From Bacteroidota bacterium (lineage in GTDB: Bacteria; Bacteroidota; Ignavibacteria; Palsa-1295), in assembly GCA_021324685.1 (NCBI GenBank), contig JAJPIQ010000069.1, forward strand, positions 1 through 64,000: a DNA stretch of 64,000 nucleotides, written 5' to 3'. This document shows, in pieces, positions 488 to 25,389 of this stretch. The position numbers were made by a program, and so were the translations under genes. The notes below the pieces were generated by a model. That model was not told where the DNA came from. It saw only the letters and a list, made by a program, of their open reading frames with translations, and made no database searches. Position 1 is the first letter of the stretch. Each line of letters opens with the position of its first letter.

Positions 488-514
488 ACGTGGTGTGCGC
501 CCACTGCGGCGCAC
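488..514 (+). repeat. REP hairpin upstream of the RAYT gene
   Basis: The head ACGTGGT (488-494) is followed by a hairpin of stem GTGCGCC (495-501), loop CACTGC (502-507) and stem GGCGCAC (508-514). It has the same 7-6-7 geometry as the copies at 1044-1205 and 25290-25352. It ends 24 bp before the transposase start codon. Confidence 0.85.
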
Positions 515-538
515 AAAAATTGATTGTAAATTTGCAAC

Positions 539-1042
539 ATGAAGCAGGACCGTCCTCGCATTCCGCACGATCAATGGGTCAAGCCGGTCTCTGACTTTAC
601 TGCAACACGGCAAAACCTTCCACATTGGCAATCCCCCGGCAGTTGGTATTGGATCGAAGCAAATTCATGGGATGGACTTGTGTTTTCCGAAGAACATCGC
701 GATCTTATCCTGGAAACGATTGAGCATCATGCGGGCAAAAAGTACGATCTCGTCGCAGCGGTCGTGATGCCGACCCATATCCACCTCATCATCCATCCGC
801 TCGAAAAGAATGCAAACGGCTATTACTCGTTGCCGGAGATCATGCACAGCATCAAAAGCTATCCTGCAAATCGCTTCGGCATTCGGATGTGGCAGGACGA
901 GAACTACGATCACATTATTCGAAATGAGAAGGACTATCAGGAAAAGCTCCGTTATCTGATCATGAACCCAGTCAAAGCCGGATTAGTAGTTCGGCCGGAG
1001 GACTATAAATGGCTGATCTATCCCGGTAAGCCAGGCAGATGA
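539..1042 (+). CDS. REP-associated tyrosine transposase (RAYT, Y1/HUH family)
   Basis: A 167-residue single-domain Y1 transposase of the TnpA_REP type. The HUH motif is THIHLIIHP (about residues 79-87), preceded by VVMP as in the family. The C-terminal half carries WQDENYDHIIRNEKDYQ and LRYLIMNPVKAGLV, the usual RAYT catalytic-tyrosine helix and conserved tail. RAYTs are single-copy domesticated relatives of IS200/IS605 transposases that cut and move REP/REPIN hairpins by single-strand transfer. The gene is flanked by REPs on both sides: one 24 bp upstream, and a pair of REPIN-like units starting right after its stop codon. There is no accessory TnpB and no IS ends. TAAATTTG (527-534) resembles a Bacteroidota -7 box but lies too close to the ATG to be convincing. 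Confidence 0.93.
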   Translation: MKQDRPRIPHDQWVKPVSDFTATRQNLPHWQSPGSWYWIEANSWDGLVFSEEHRDLILETIEHHAGKKYDLVAAVVMPTHIHLIIHPLEKNANGYYSLPEIMHSIKSYPANRFGIRMWQDENYDHIIRNEKDYQEKLRYLIMNPVKAGLVVRPEDYKWLIYPGKPGR

Positions 1043-1043
1043 C

Positions 1044-1205
1044 GCGTGGTGGTCGCCCCCCGCGGCGACCTTGGGGCATGCATGAAAAACTGTGCGCCGC
1101 GGTGACGTGCTGAAACACGTACTGCAACGCGTGGTGGTCGCCCCCCGCGGCGACCTTGGGTGCATGCATGAAAAAACTGTGCGCCGCGGTGGGCGCACAC
1201 CACGC
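1044..1205. repeat. Two tandem REPIN-like units (inverted REP pairs) downstream of RAYT
   Basis: Forward REPs lie at 1044-1070 and 1129-1155: head GCGTGGT, stem GGTCGCC, loop CCCCGC, stem GGCGACC. Each is followed by a spacer of the TTGGG(G)CATGCATGAAAAA type and an inverted REP. The second inverted REP (1179-1205) is complete: GTGCGCC, GCGGTG, GGCGCAC, then ACCACGC. The first inverted REP (1092-1104) keeps only one arm and the loop, so it is eroded. Two copies of the whole unit in a row suggest local duplication of a REPIN. Confidence 0.85.
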
Positions 1206-5528: not shown

Positions 5529-8500
5529 ATGAGAGCGCGTCTACTTTTCTTTAAGTTCTTATTGGCAGCCGCTGCGGTTCCCTCGGCTGCCCAAACGCCG
5601 AAGTGGCAGCAGATAGGCCTGCGTCTTGGCCTCGGAATCCAATGCGGATATTTCTGGAATCGCGGGGAAGGCGTGATCGCCACCGGCTCCGGGCAGTTTT
5701 ATTATTTACGTAACGGTGCCTGGCATGCCGGACTAAAATTGCCGTATGGCGCGCTCATCAATTCCATTCGTTGCTTCGACGGTAAAACTCTTTATGCCCC
5801 GGCGCTAAATCGATTCAATGGCGCAAGTCAATTATGGAAATCGGTCGATAGCGGAATCACGTGGTCCCAGGCGTCCGTTACGAACGCATGGCCCGGTCAG
5901 AGTAACAACGGACCCGATGTCTATTGGAGTTACCGCTCGAATGCTCCGGTCCTTTGGGGATCGACGGTCGTCCGACTCGATAGCCAGGACCTCGCTGCCA
6001 CGTTCGATTTTTTCGGCACCGGCCCGCCCAGCTATTCCACCGATGGCGGGCGTTCGTGGGTTACCAGGAGCCTTTTGTTCGATTCGATCACGGGATATAA
6101 TTATTACTCCGGATCCGGAGTCTGTGCGGACCGGATCAACAAACTCTATTACGCCACGTCGGAATCGGGTTATCCGGGAATGTTCCGCTCGACCGATTCG
6201 GGCCGGACGTGGATCTGCCTCGGTGGCTTGCCACAAACGCTCTTTATGATGGACGACGTCGAAGGCATTTATGACAAGACCTTCTTTCAAACGTCCAAAG
6301 GCATCTACGAAACGACCGATCGGGGCGCAACGTGGGTTCCCATCGGAGGACCGACGCGGCTCGTTTCCGACGACGCAAGATTTTGCGTCTTTGGATGTAC
6401 CGGCGAGGCCGTGATTGCATTCGACGATGGCGGCGGCGTATGGATCGCAAACGATTGGGACGCACCCGATCCCGCAGAACTCGCCTCCTCGTTCACGGCA
6501 TCGCCAAAAATATGCGACACCGCCGTTATCGTGGTCACGGCGCCCCGGAATTTCGAGCAGGGCCGGCTCCGCATCTCCGTTCTCGATTCGTCCGGATTGT
6601 TTTCGCTCCTCAGCCCGGACACGATCGCGCTCGATAGTGCCGCCCAGAAAATTCGCATCTCATTTTCCAGCAGGGACCTCGCAGAACATTCCGCGCAACT
6701 CTCGATCGAACCGCTCGATAGCGGACTCTGCCCGATTATCCATCCGATCTATGGCGAGGCGCGCCTCACGCCGCCCATCGTTTCCGTGGTGTCCCCCGTG
6801 GTGCTCTGTACGGCGGGGGCATCGGCCATTTATCTTTCGGACCTCGATTGCGATTCGCTGCGGATCTCAAAAATCTCCACCGGCCCCTCCATTCAGGTCC
6901 TGGCCTTCGACTCGGTCGTCCGCGCGGCCGACAGTGTTTTGCTTTCGGTCCTTCCCGCCGGCAAAGATACCACCGAACGTCTCACGGTTCGCATCGAAGG
7001 GACGCGGGAACCTTCCGGCGTGGCCTTCGACACCACCGTGGGAATTATCGTTACGACCTCTCACACCCGTTCGACGCTGGGATGGCCCTCCCAGTCCCAA
7101 ATGACCGTCGCGCAGCCCGATATCTGCACGGCCATCGATACCTCGATCATTATTTGGAATAACGGCTGCGATACCGTCCTGGTCGATCTCGCTTCCGGCA
7201 ACATGACGGGCGGCGGATGGTCGGTCATGGCGCGCAGCGGCATGCATGCCCTTTATCCGGGACAAACGGACACGATCCGCGTCCATTTTTTCTCCTCGGT
7301 CCCGGGGAAGTATCCCATTTCGCTCGAATACAGCTACCGTTATGGAGTGTCCCTGCAGGACCTCCTCGACTTCCAACTCACGGCCACGGTCCCGAGCGCC
7401 GGCCCGAGCGTGATGCTTGCCCCTTCGCGTTTCGATTTCGGGGACCGGTCGTTTTGCGATGGCGATACCACGGTCGATATGTCGTTCCAAAACCTGCGGT
7501 GCGACAGCGTTTGGGTTTCGAACGTTCACTTTTTGCATAGTAATTCGTTCCAGTTAGCGACGGCCTCGGACAGCCTGCTCCCACCCGCCGGTGTGTTGAC
7601 TGAAACCGTCTTTGCGACGGCTTCCCCGCGAGGTATCGCGCAGGACACGCTCGAACTCCATGTCTCGAACGCGAGCGGGACGTTTTCGCTCGATACCGTA
7701 ATCCCGTTTCGAATGAACATCGTGCGCGGCTCTGCGGCACTGAGCGTTTCGGCGGCGGCGGTTGACGTTGGCACGACCTATCGTTGCGAAGAACGCGATA
7801 CGTTCGTTGTCCTTCGGGATACCGGTTGCGATTCGGTCTGCATTACGGCGATTTCGCTTTCGGGAACCGGATTTACGATCGCCCGCGGTAACGAAGCGCG
7901 CTGTCTCGGAAGTAATGAGACCGACACGGTGTGGCTGCATACTGCGATCGATACCTCGGATCAGCAAATCGAGAACGTGGATACGTTACAGGTCGAAAAC
8001 GATGGGAGCGCATCGCTGGGCGCGGTGGTGTTATCGCGCGGGATTCAATATCCCACACCCTGGAAATTGCGCGTGCTCCCCGCCGGGAGCACGCGCGCCG
8101 GCTCGGACGAACGCCTCGAGATCGTTCAACGCGGCCGCCTGCCGGACGATGTAACGGCCCTCCGGTTTTCGCTTTTCTACGATGACGACATCCTCGGCTA
8201 TACCGGCGCAGACGAACCCGCCGTGAGTTCCCCTGTCTATTATCGCAGAGCCGATGGTGTAGCGTGCCAGACCTTCCTCATTTCTCCCGTGACCTCGGAC
8301 TCGATTCTTGCAACGCTCCATTTTACTCCGTACGTCACCCGAGCATCGAACACGGCGATAACGCTGGACAGTATTCAGCTTGTCTCTTCGTTCGACCGGC
8401 CGCAACCGTGCATTGCAACGATCGACACTTCGGGAACGACGTTCTCCCTGCTGGCGCAATGCGGTACCGAAGAACTTGCCGGATTTTTACGAAGCGGAAT

Positions 8501-8750
8501 CGTTCGGATCGACGAAGTCCATTCTTCCCAGCAGGGAATCGATTTTTCTATTTTTTCGAATTTCGATACTCCGGGTTCCGAACTCGCGATCAGCGATGCC
8601 CTCGGGAGGACGTGTTGGACGGGAAATATTTCCCTTGCGGAGGGAGAACATCGAATTTCGGTCGCCGCTGCCCTCCCGAGCGGGTTTTATATGGCCCGCC
8701 TTCGTTCGGAAGATGTTGTTTCGGCCAAAAAATTCGTTGTCAAAAATTGA
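5529..8750 (+). CDS. Giant T9SS-sorted surface protein, paralogue 1 (BNR/Ycf48-like plus Cys-pair Ig repeats plus cohesin-like module)
   Basis: 1073 residues. The signal peptide is MRARLLFFKFLLAAAAVPSAAQ. The N-terminal third (to about 330) has propeller-type Asp-box repeats such as YSTDGGRSW, STDSGRTW and TTDRGATW. The middle holds Ig-like modules with a regular cysteine pair: CTAGASAIYLSDLDC, CTAIDTSIIIWNNGC, CDGDTTVDMSFQNLRC and CEERDTFVVLRDTGC, each followed by D-S/T-V and hydrophobic strands. A cohesin-like module follows (LRFSLFYDDDILGYTG ... ILATLHFTPY). The end is a T9SS type-A sorting domain (ALGRTCWTG, LPSGFYMARLRS, KKFVVKN). Expected path: Sec export, then T9SS across the outer membrane. 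The next gene is a close paralogue, so this is a tandem duplication. The ligand or function is unknown. Confidence 0.85.
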   Translation: MRARLLFFKFLLAAAAVPSAAQTPKWQQIGLRLGLGIQCGYFWNRGEGVIATGSGQFYYLRNGAWHAGLKLPYGALINSIRCFDGKTLYAPALNRFNGASQLWKSVDSGITWSQASVTNAWPGQSNNGPDVYWSYRSNAPVLWGSTVVRLDSQDLAATFDFFGTGPPSYSTDGGRSWVTRSLLFDSITGYNYYSGSGVCADRINKLYYATSESGYPGMFRSTDSGRTWICLGGLPQTLFMMDDVEGIYDKTFFQTSKGIYETTDRGATWVPIGGPTRLVSDDARFCVFGCTGEAVIAFDDGGGVWIANDWDAPDPAELASSFTASPKICDTAVIVVTAPRNFEQGRLRISVLDSSGLFSLLSPDTIALDSAAQKIRISFSSRDLAEHSAQLSIEPLDSGLCPIIHPIYGEARLTPPIVSVVSPVVLCTAGASAIYLSDLDCDSLRISKISTGPSIQVLAFDSVVRAADSVLLSVLPAGKDTTERLTVRIEGTREPSGVAFDTTVGIIVTTSHTRSTLGWPSQSQMTVAQPDICTAIDTSIIIWNNGCDTVLVDLASGNMTGGGWSVMARSGMHALYPGQTDTIRVHFFSSVPGKYPISLEYSYRYGVSLQDLLDFQLTATVPSAGPSVMLAPSRFDFGDRSFCDGDTTVDMSFQNLRCDSVWVSNVHFLHSNSFQLATASDSLLPPAGVLTETVFATASPRGIAQDTLELHVSNASGTFSLDTVIPFRMNIVRGSAALSVSAAAVDVGTTYRCEERDTFVVLRDTGCDSVCITAISLSGTGFTIARGNEARCLGSNETDTVWLHTAIDTSDQQIENVDTLQVENDGSASLGAVVLSRGIQYPTPWKLRVLPAGSTRAGSDERLEIVQRGRLPDDVTALRFSLFYDDDILGYTGADEPAVSSPVYYRRADGVACQTFLISPVTSDSILATLHFTPYVTRASNTAITLDSIQLVSSFDRPQPCIATIDTSGTTFSLLAQCGTEELAGFLRSGIVRIDEVHSSQQGIDFSIFSNFDTPGSELAISDALGRTCWTGNISLAEGEHRISVAAALPSGFYMARLRSEDVVSAKKFVVKN

Positions 8751-25289: not shown

Positions 25290-25389
25290 GCGTGGTGTGC
25301 GCCCACCGCGGCGCACCTCCGGCGAGGACTCTGTTGGCCGCGGTGGGCTAACACCACGTGGGCCAACACCACGTGGGCCAACACCACGC
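25290..25389. repeat. REP cluster with a new stem variant and a 15-bp triplicated arm
   Basis: A forward REP at 25290-25316: head GCGTGGT, stem GTGCGCC, loop CACCGC, stem GGCGCAC. An inverted REP at 25333-25359: GTTGGCC, GCGGTG, GGCTAAC, then ACCACGT. A 15-bp unit of the form GGGCYAACACCACGY is then present three times in total (25345-25389). The 261-bp gap between the small frame and coaBC consists mainly of this cluster. Confidence 0.85.

Follow-up and report, generated by a model that had tools for sequence, protein, structure and literature searches.

The window, a 64,000-nucleotide stretch of a Bacteroidota contig, carries near its start a RAYT (TnpAREP) gene at 539–1042 on the forward strand, with a hairpin preceded on its 5′ side by a GT[AG]G tetranucleotide (here of the GTGG type) at each flank. 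The gene encodes 167 amino acids, including an HuH motif (H80-I-H82), the pair W118-Q119 and the catalytic tyrosine Y139 within YLIMNPVKAG. This open reading frame matches the NCBIfam model for REP-associated tyrosine transposases (NF047646) at 84.4 bits (6.8e-24; curated cutoff 80) and the structure of E. coli TnpArep (PDB 4er8) at 1.5e-8; the Pfam family Y1_Tnp gives just 17.4 bits, under its cutoff of 23. The frame is intact with every catalytic residue present, and H80, H82, W118, Y139, N143 and P144 are invariant across nine aligned RAYTs. The family match, the structural match and the HuH/Y139 motif bear out the RAYT call of the initial annotation; its guess at a host in the FCB group is sound. 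Further along the window, a 1073-aa ORF at 5529–8750 has no Pfam match at the 0.001 threshold and resembles a long, secreted protein with repeats.

Four REPs beside the gene share the CGTGGT head and the 7-6-7 geometry that had been read from them: 489–514, 1045–1070 and 1130–1155 on the forward strand and 1179–1204 on the reverse strand. The first (stem GTGCGCC/GGCGCAC, loop CACTGC) ends 24 bp upstream of the ATG at 539, as annotated, and has a predicted folding energy of −9.6 kcal/mol (z −2.8). The second (stem GGTCGCC/GGCGACC, loop CCCCGC) has a head that starts 2 bp past the RAYT TGA. The remaining two form an intact heteromeric REPIN (1130–1204, z −3.5), so that both of the proposed stem classes are present, GTGCGCC/GGCGCAC at 489 and 1204 and GGTCGCC/GGCGACC at 1045 and 1130. 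Two inverted-pair units had been described after the stop codon; the one at 1130–1204 stands, while the first is half-decayed, the reverse-strand mate of 1045–1070 (1089–1119) having kept its 3′ arm, with its head cut to CGTG and its 5′ arm lost. This unit, 1045–1119, folds no better than shuffles (z −0.30).

To follow the hairpins beyond the gene, we searched the 3.47-Mb genome with their pattern, as the initial annotation had suggested. At one mismatch or fewer there are eight matches, versus none for the reversed control pattern, and within the window seven matches at up to three mismatches compare with 1.5 expected, a count that no shuffle reached. A broader two-mismatch pattern matched 204 times and its reversed control 94 times; most of these matches are due to chance, and only the zero-mismatch rows were used. 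The hairpins do not lie beside the RAYT alone but at three further places, giving nine full REP copies at four places in the genome: the RAYT, 25291–25358, the groES-groEL spacer and an mqnE-mqnA fusion gene, three of the four being intergenic. The names groES, groEL, coaBC, mqnE and mqnA are readings of the sequence rather than results of a family search.

At 25291–25316 (forward strand) an intergenic REP with the stem GTGCGCC/GGCGCAC, upstream of a coaBC-like gene, is joined by an inverted mate at 25333–25358 (reverse strand) whose stem, GTTAGCC/GGCCAAC, has one mismatch and represents a third stem class. This heteromeric REPIN folds at z −6.5, and next to it, at 25359–25388 on the reverse strand, stand two tandem 15-bp truncated copies consisting of head and 5′ arm (CGTGGTGTTGGCCCA). 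The groES-groEL spacer holds a REPIN with perfect stems, directly past groES and ahead of groEL. The fourth place is a long ORF on contig C52 (L017:1928–1957), which aligns with the intact mqnE-mqnA-like fusion of relatives and reads the REP in frame as HSAPQWAHTT. With nine full copies here and 26 in the richest relative, this is not a high-copy family, and ‘abundant REP family’ would be the wrong term. We keep the name REP because the structure, the guide and the linkage to a RAYT are all present, and low-copy REPtrons have already been described (PMC3733652).

The genome encodes seven RAYTs, and each of the six besides the window RAYT is flanked by a different GT[AG]G hairpin type of its own. 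The two sisters most similar to the window RAYT (56% and 50% identity) lie on contigs C74 (L018 3600–4400; REP GTGG-CGCAG[Y]GCT-TCC-AGC-CTGCG) and C2 (L019 1960–2630; REP GTAG-GTCGG[T]GCG-TCC-CGC-CCGAC), and two sister-RAYT hairpin families tested in the genome are likewise low-copy. By eye, the C74 and C2 REPs both have a 5′-side bulge, a covarying 3-bp tip and a TCC triloop.

In the sister species, a covariance model built from 24 copies, which are themselves among the copies counted, found at E ≤ 1e-3 the nine of the own genome and about 51 further copies in six species together (26 in G002, 11 in G006, six in G005, five in G004, two in G003 and one in G001). Matches in G034, G052 and G135 were dropped, as their stem is unpaired. 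Inverted pairs occur at 1130–1204, at 25291–25358, between groES and groEL, and in G002, G005 and G006. Most join two unlike perfect stems, as at 1130–1204, on G006 contigs C58 and C7, on G002 contig C136 (GTGCGCC with GGCCGCC) and on G005 contig C4 (GTCCGGC with GGTCGCC); the stems at 25291–25358 are unlike too, one of them imperfect, and the exception is the pair between groES and groEL, whose stems are alike. The BIMEs of E. coli pair y with z REPs, a parallel to these unlike-stem pairs. Elsewhere in G005 (C16:217699–217803; L299:50–155), tandem REPs with a 36-bp period leave the reading frame uninterrupted, so that it encodes a 12-aa repeat (RVVSGDPAGPMD).

Within these relatives, whose assemblies are fragmented, the REPs seem to outlive their enzyme. 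No intact RAYT of the window subtype was found in G001–G003 or G006. In G004 (C40, L156:1421–1977) there are two window-type RAYT fragments of 66–70% identity near a degenerate CGCGTGGC hairpin, and in G005 (C4, L157:1356–1577) a 29-aa N-terminal remnant (66%) lies next to a heteromeric REPIN. The REP-richest sisters, G002 and G006, are assemblies of 250 and 350 contigs in which the cognate enzyme either is absent, has been lost or escaped assembly.

We read the locus, with a probability of about 85%, as a REPtron, in which a HuH/Y1 transposase (RAYT), present as a single copy and probably domesticated, is accompanied by its cognate REP hairpins. The reading draws on the identity of the gene and its catalytic motif, on the cognate hairpins at its flanks and their dispersal, and on the full and empty sites and the covariation of stem and apical pair described below. 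Against it stand the own-genome count of only nine full copies, several of them diverged, so that present activity is putative, and the fact that the REP-richest relatives show no intact RAYT of this subtype in their assemblies. There is an appreciable, if minority, chance that the system is instead a dead relic, in which the RAYT once spread REPs through the genus, what is left of the family is fading and persists by chance, and the apparent stem classes descend from old founders. The low copy number in the own genome, the decayed mate at 1089–1119, the truncated repeats at 25359–25388, the RAYT remnants in G004 and G005 and a MetRS REP site common to G001 and G002 would all suit such a history, which accounts less well for an intact RAYT frame with its catalytic residues and for the perfect stems of the REPINs at 1130–1204 and between groES and groEL.

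The REPtron reading gains further detail from the architecture of the hairpin. Across the first 24 copies, 98.6% of stem cells are paired and four of the seven pairs have changed on both sides, with a covariation score of 0.335 versus 0.085 for shuffled and at most 0.113 for slid alignments; with 68 copies, covariation is seen at five pairs and 97.7% of cells are paired. The loop had been described as fixed, but it conceals a covarying pair and a bulge. It comes in two forms, CACYGC or GACYCY, and its positions 1 and 5 are C-G in 33 of the 68 copies, G-C in 32 and something else in three (65/68 paired, a figure that, like the other pairing figures, counts sequences rather than independent events and is inflated by the kinship of the copies). 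Shuffles stratified by stem class pair 46.7 on average, and none of 20,000 reached 65; when distinct rows are counted, 58 of 61 have this apical pair, with a score of 0.919 versus 0.260 shuffled. The apical pair played no part in the model that collected the copies. Both of its forms occur within each of the stem classes GGGCGCC, GGTCGCC, GGGCGGC and GTCCGGC, which argues for repeated change. An alternative pairing of loop positions 1 and 6 was discarded, since with 49% paired it does no better than the shuffles. Over the 68 copies, the element consists of 7 bp, a bulged 3′-side pyrimidine (C in 58, T in nine, G in one), one apical pair and an NCY triloop whose centre is C in 67, and 47 copies have the 5′ motif CGCGTGGT.

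From the joint change of both arms, selection for structure had been concluded at the outset. The covariation is indeed strong and selection for structure is a plausible cause, but templated palindrome repair or inheritance from a few founders could give the same pattern. Template-switch (quasipalindrome) repair is a well-known mutational process in which one arm is copied from the other; as the source of the paired stem changes it is compatible with the RAYT/REP identity and rivals the inference of selection only, and we consider it rather unlikely. While it would explain why half-changed stems are very rare (97.7% of cells paired), the apical pair (positions 16–20) covaries as strongly as the stem despite an intervening unpaired base, which makes it a poor target for templated repair, and the head and triloop centre are constant while the stem varies.

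Orthologous sites with and without the REPs were found at several genes. The groES-groEL spacer is full in the own genome and empty in other species; the PheS REP is full in G004 and the UvrA, IleRS and MBOAT REPs in G002, with orthologues elsewhere empty. At the mqnE-mqnA site, 36 nt with the REP correspond to 33 nt without it, so that the REP replaced a loop rather than simply lengthening it. The MetRS REP occupies an identical site in G001 and G002 and for this reason looks inherited. Such in-frame REPs (L088, L094, L096, L098 and L249, in the PheS, UvrA, MBOAT, IleRS and MetRS genes) are mostly read in the relatives as xGAAVGAHHA-like peptides, and intragenic REPs occur in both sense and antisense orientation. 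Judged from the aligned sequences, the mostly empty orthologous sites show past mobility of the REPs. In the relatives, both the spacer between groES and groEL and the protein loops are too diverged for the insertion junctions to be placed exactly.

A preference of the REPs for genes was rejected: of the 39 elements at the loci examined, 27 fall within ORFs of 150 aa or more, versus 85% of random positions, so that there is no such preference and the elements are somewhat depleted in ORFs. No RAYT match adjoining the ribonucleotide reductase gene was found in the relatives. In G003, the groES-groEL spacer (L140) carries a different inverted hairpin pair, of the GTAGGGGCGTGCTGCGCACGTCCC type, and this spacer may therefore repeatedly receive REP-like elements. 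That the hairpins serve the host at the RNA or DNA level (as terminators or mRNA stabilisers, for instance between groES and groEL) with the RAYT an incidental neighbour is very improbable, for although the REPIN lies directly past groES and ahead of groEL, REPs hug the RAYT at both flanks, sit sense and antisense inside coding genes, and are matched at the other RAYTs by equally close yet different hairpins. A role at groES-groEL can coexist with mobility.

How the REPtron might work can be proposed by analogy with the E. coli and Stenotrophomonas enzymes (PMC8266576), from which the recognition determinants, cleavage, movement by the window RAYT and a single-stranded route would carry over. 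A REP strand that becomes single-stranded, on the lagging strand or in an extruded cruciform, would fold into its hairpin, and the RAYT would bind it through the GTGG guide (here extended, CGCGTGGT), the bulged pyrimidine and the one-pair NCY tip. Y139 would then cut beside the hairpin, and the enzyme would join the REP, or an inverted REP pair, at another site. The stem sequence may be largely free provided that it pairs, and several stem classes could thereby serve one RAYT. The proposal in its complete form, with a fixed CGCGTGGT guide, recognition of the bulge and NCY tip, a free stem, one RAYT for at least six stem classes, a preference for unlike-stem pairs, and REPs persisting after the RAYT is gone and coming to lie in frame within loops of essential proteins, is tentative and on balance doubtful.

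Detailed dissections of RAYT/REP recognition exist for only a few enzyme–REP pairs, all of them gammaproteobacterial (PMC8266576). The roughly 60 natural hairpin variants described here, which combine a single guide with many different stems and two forms of the apical pair, are a ready test set for what a RAYT reads, and the full and empty in-frame sites (UvrA, IleRS, PheS, MBOAT, MqnEA) show where hairpins are tolerated.

RAYT loci of other phyla were taken as the best 80 of 408 relatives from an alignment query of genome contigs; a single-protein query of the same contigs gave no matches. These 80 loci, from Zixibacteria, WOR-3, Chloroflexi, Deltaproteobacteria, Cyanobacteria, Planctomycetes and others, mostly have GTGG or GTAG hairpins close by, with at least two flanking hairpins at 70 of 80 versus 25 of 80 in the control. 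Single flanking hairpins were not taken as evidence, because the control has at least one in 48 of 80. RAYT/REP systems beyond gammaproteobacteria, Bacteroidetes included, have been described before (PMC6006769, PMC3733652). Two stem classes served by one RAYT, which the initial annotation had thought would be informative, are not new: they are frequent among the 80 loci and known from E. coli, where TnpAREP serves the y, z1 and z2 REPs (PMC8266576).

Compared with known systems, the locus shares with the E. coli REPtron (TnpAREP/YafM; y, z1, z2, BIMEs; group 2) a single RAYT for several REP classes, inverted pairs, a GT[AG]G guide and an unpaired pyrimidine on the 3′ side of the hairpin, which is important in E. 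coli (PMC8266576). It differs in the hairpin, which in E. coli is a long stem with an AA/GC bulge and here has 7 bp, one bulged pyrimidine, an apical pair and an NCY triloop, and in its GTGG guide and nine copies versus GTAG and about 600. The E. coli and S. maltophilia enzymes depend on GTAG and on unpaired bases, and the stem sequence is constrained only in part (PMC8266576). The Stenotrophomonas and Marinomonas REPtrons (group 3, subclass 2.5) resemble the present one in their short hairpin, small loop with an essential base and partly free stem (PMC8266576); of the subclass motifs (DH[LF]H, WQ, YI[VI]ANP), the window RAYT has WQ but THIH and YLIMNP, whereas its two closest sisters in the own genome carry DHFH as well as WQ. 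Bulged REPs and a different phylum also set the window system apart.

Subclass 2.4 (Bertels group 4; Cyanobacteria, Bacteroidetes and others) is alike in phylum range, GT[AG]G heads, WQ and in-frame REPs within genes, which in subclass 2.4 lie inside tnpAREP itself (PMC6006769). The window RAYT nevertheless falls outside its definition (NH[IFV]H, median HuH–Y distance 88; PMC6006769), with THIH and a distance of 57 aa, and four other RAYTs of the own genome, of the NH[VAL]H type, fit this subclass better. REPs read in frame in uvrA and tRNA synthetase genes were already known from elsewhere, and intragenic REPs and Rickettsia palindromic elements are likewise short in-frame palindromes in uvrA, tRNA synthetases and other genes (PMC3733652); they belong to another family and host, whereas here full and empty orthologues are aligned within one genus. 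The novelty lies in the REP family as such, in the bulge and tip of its hairpins, and in the collection of full and empty sites.
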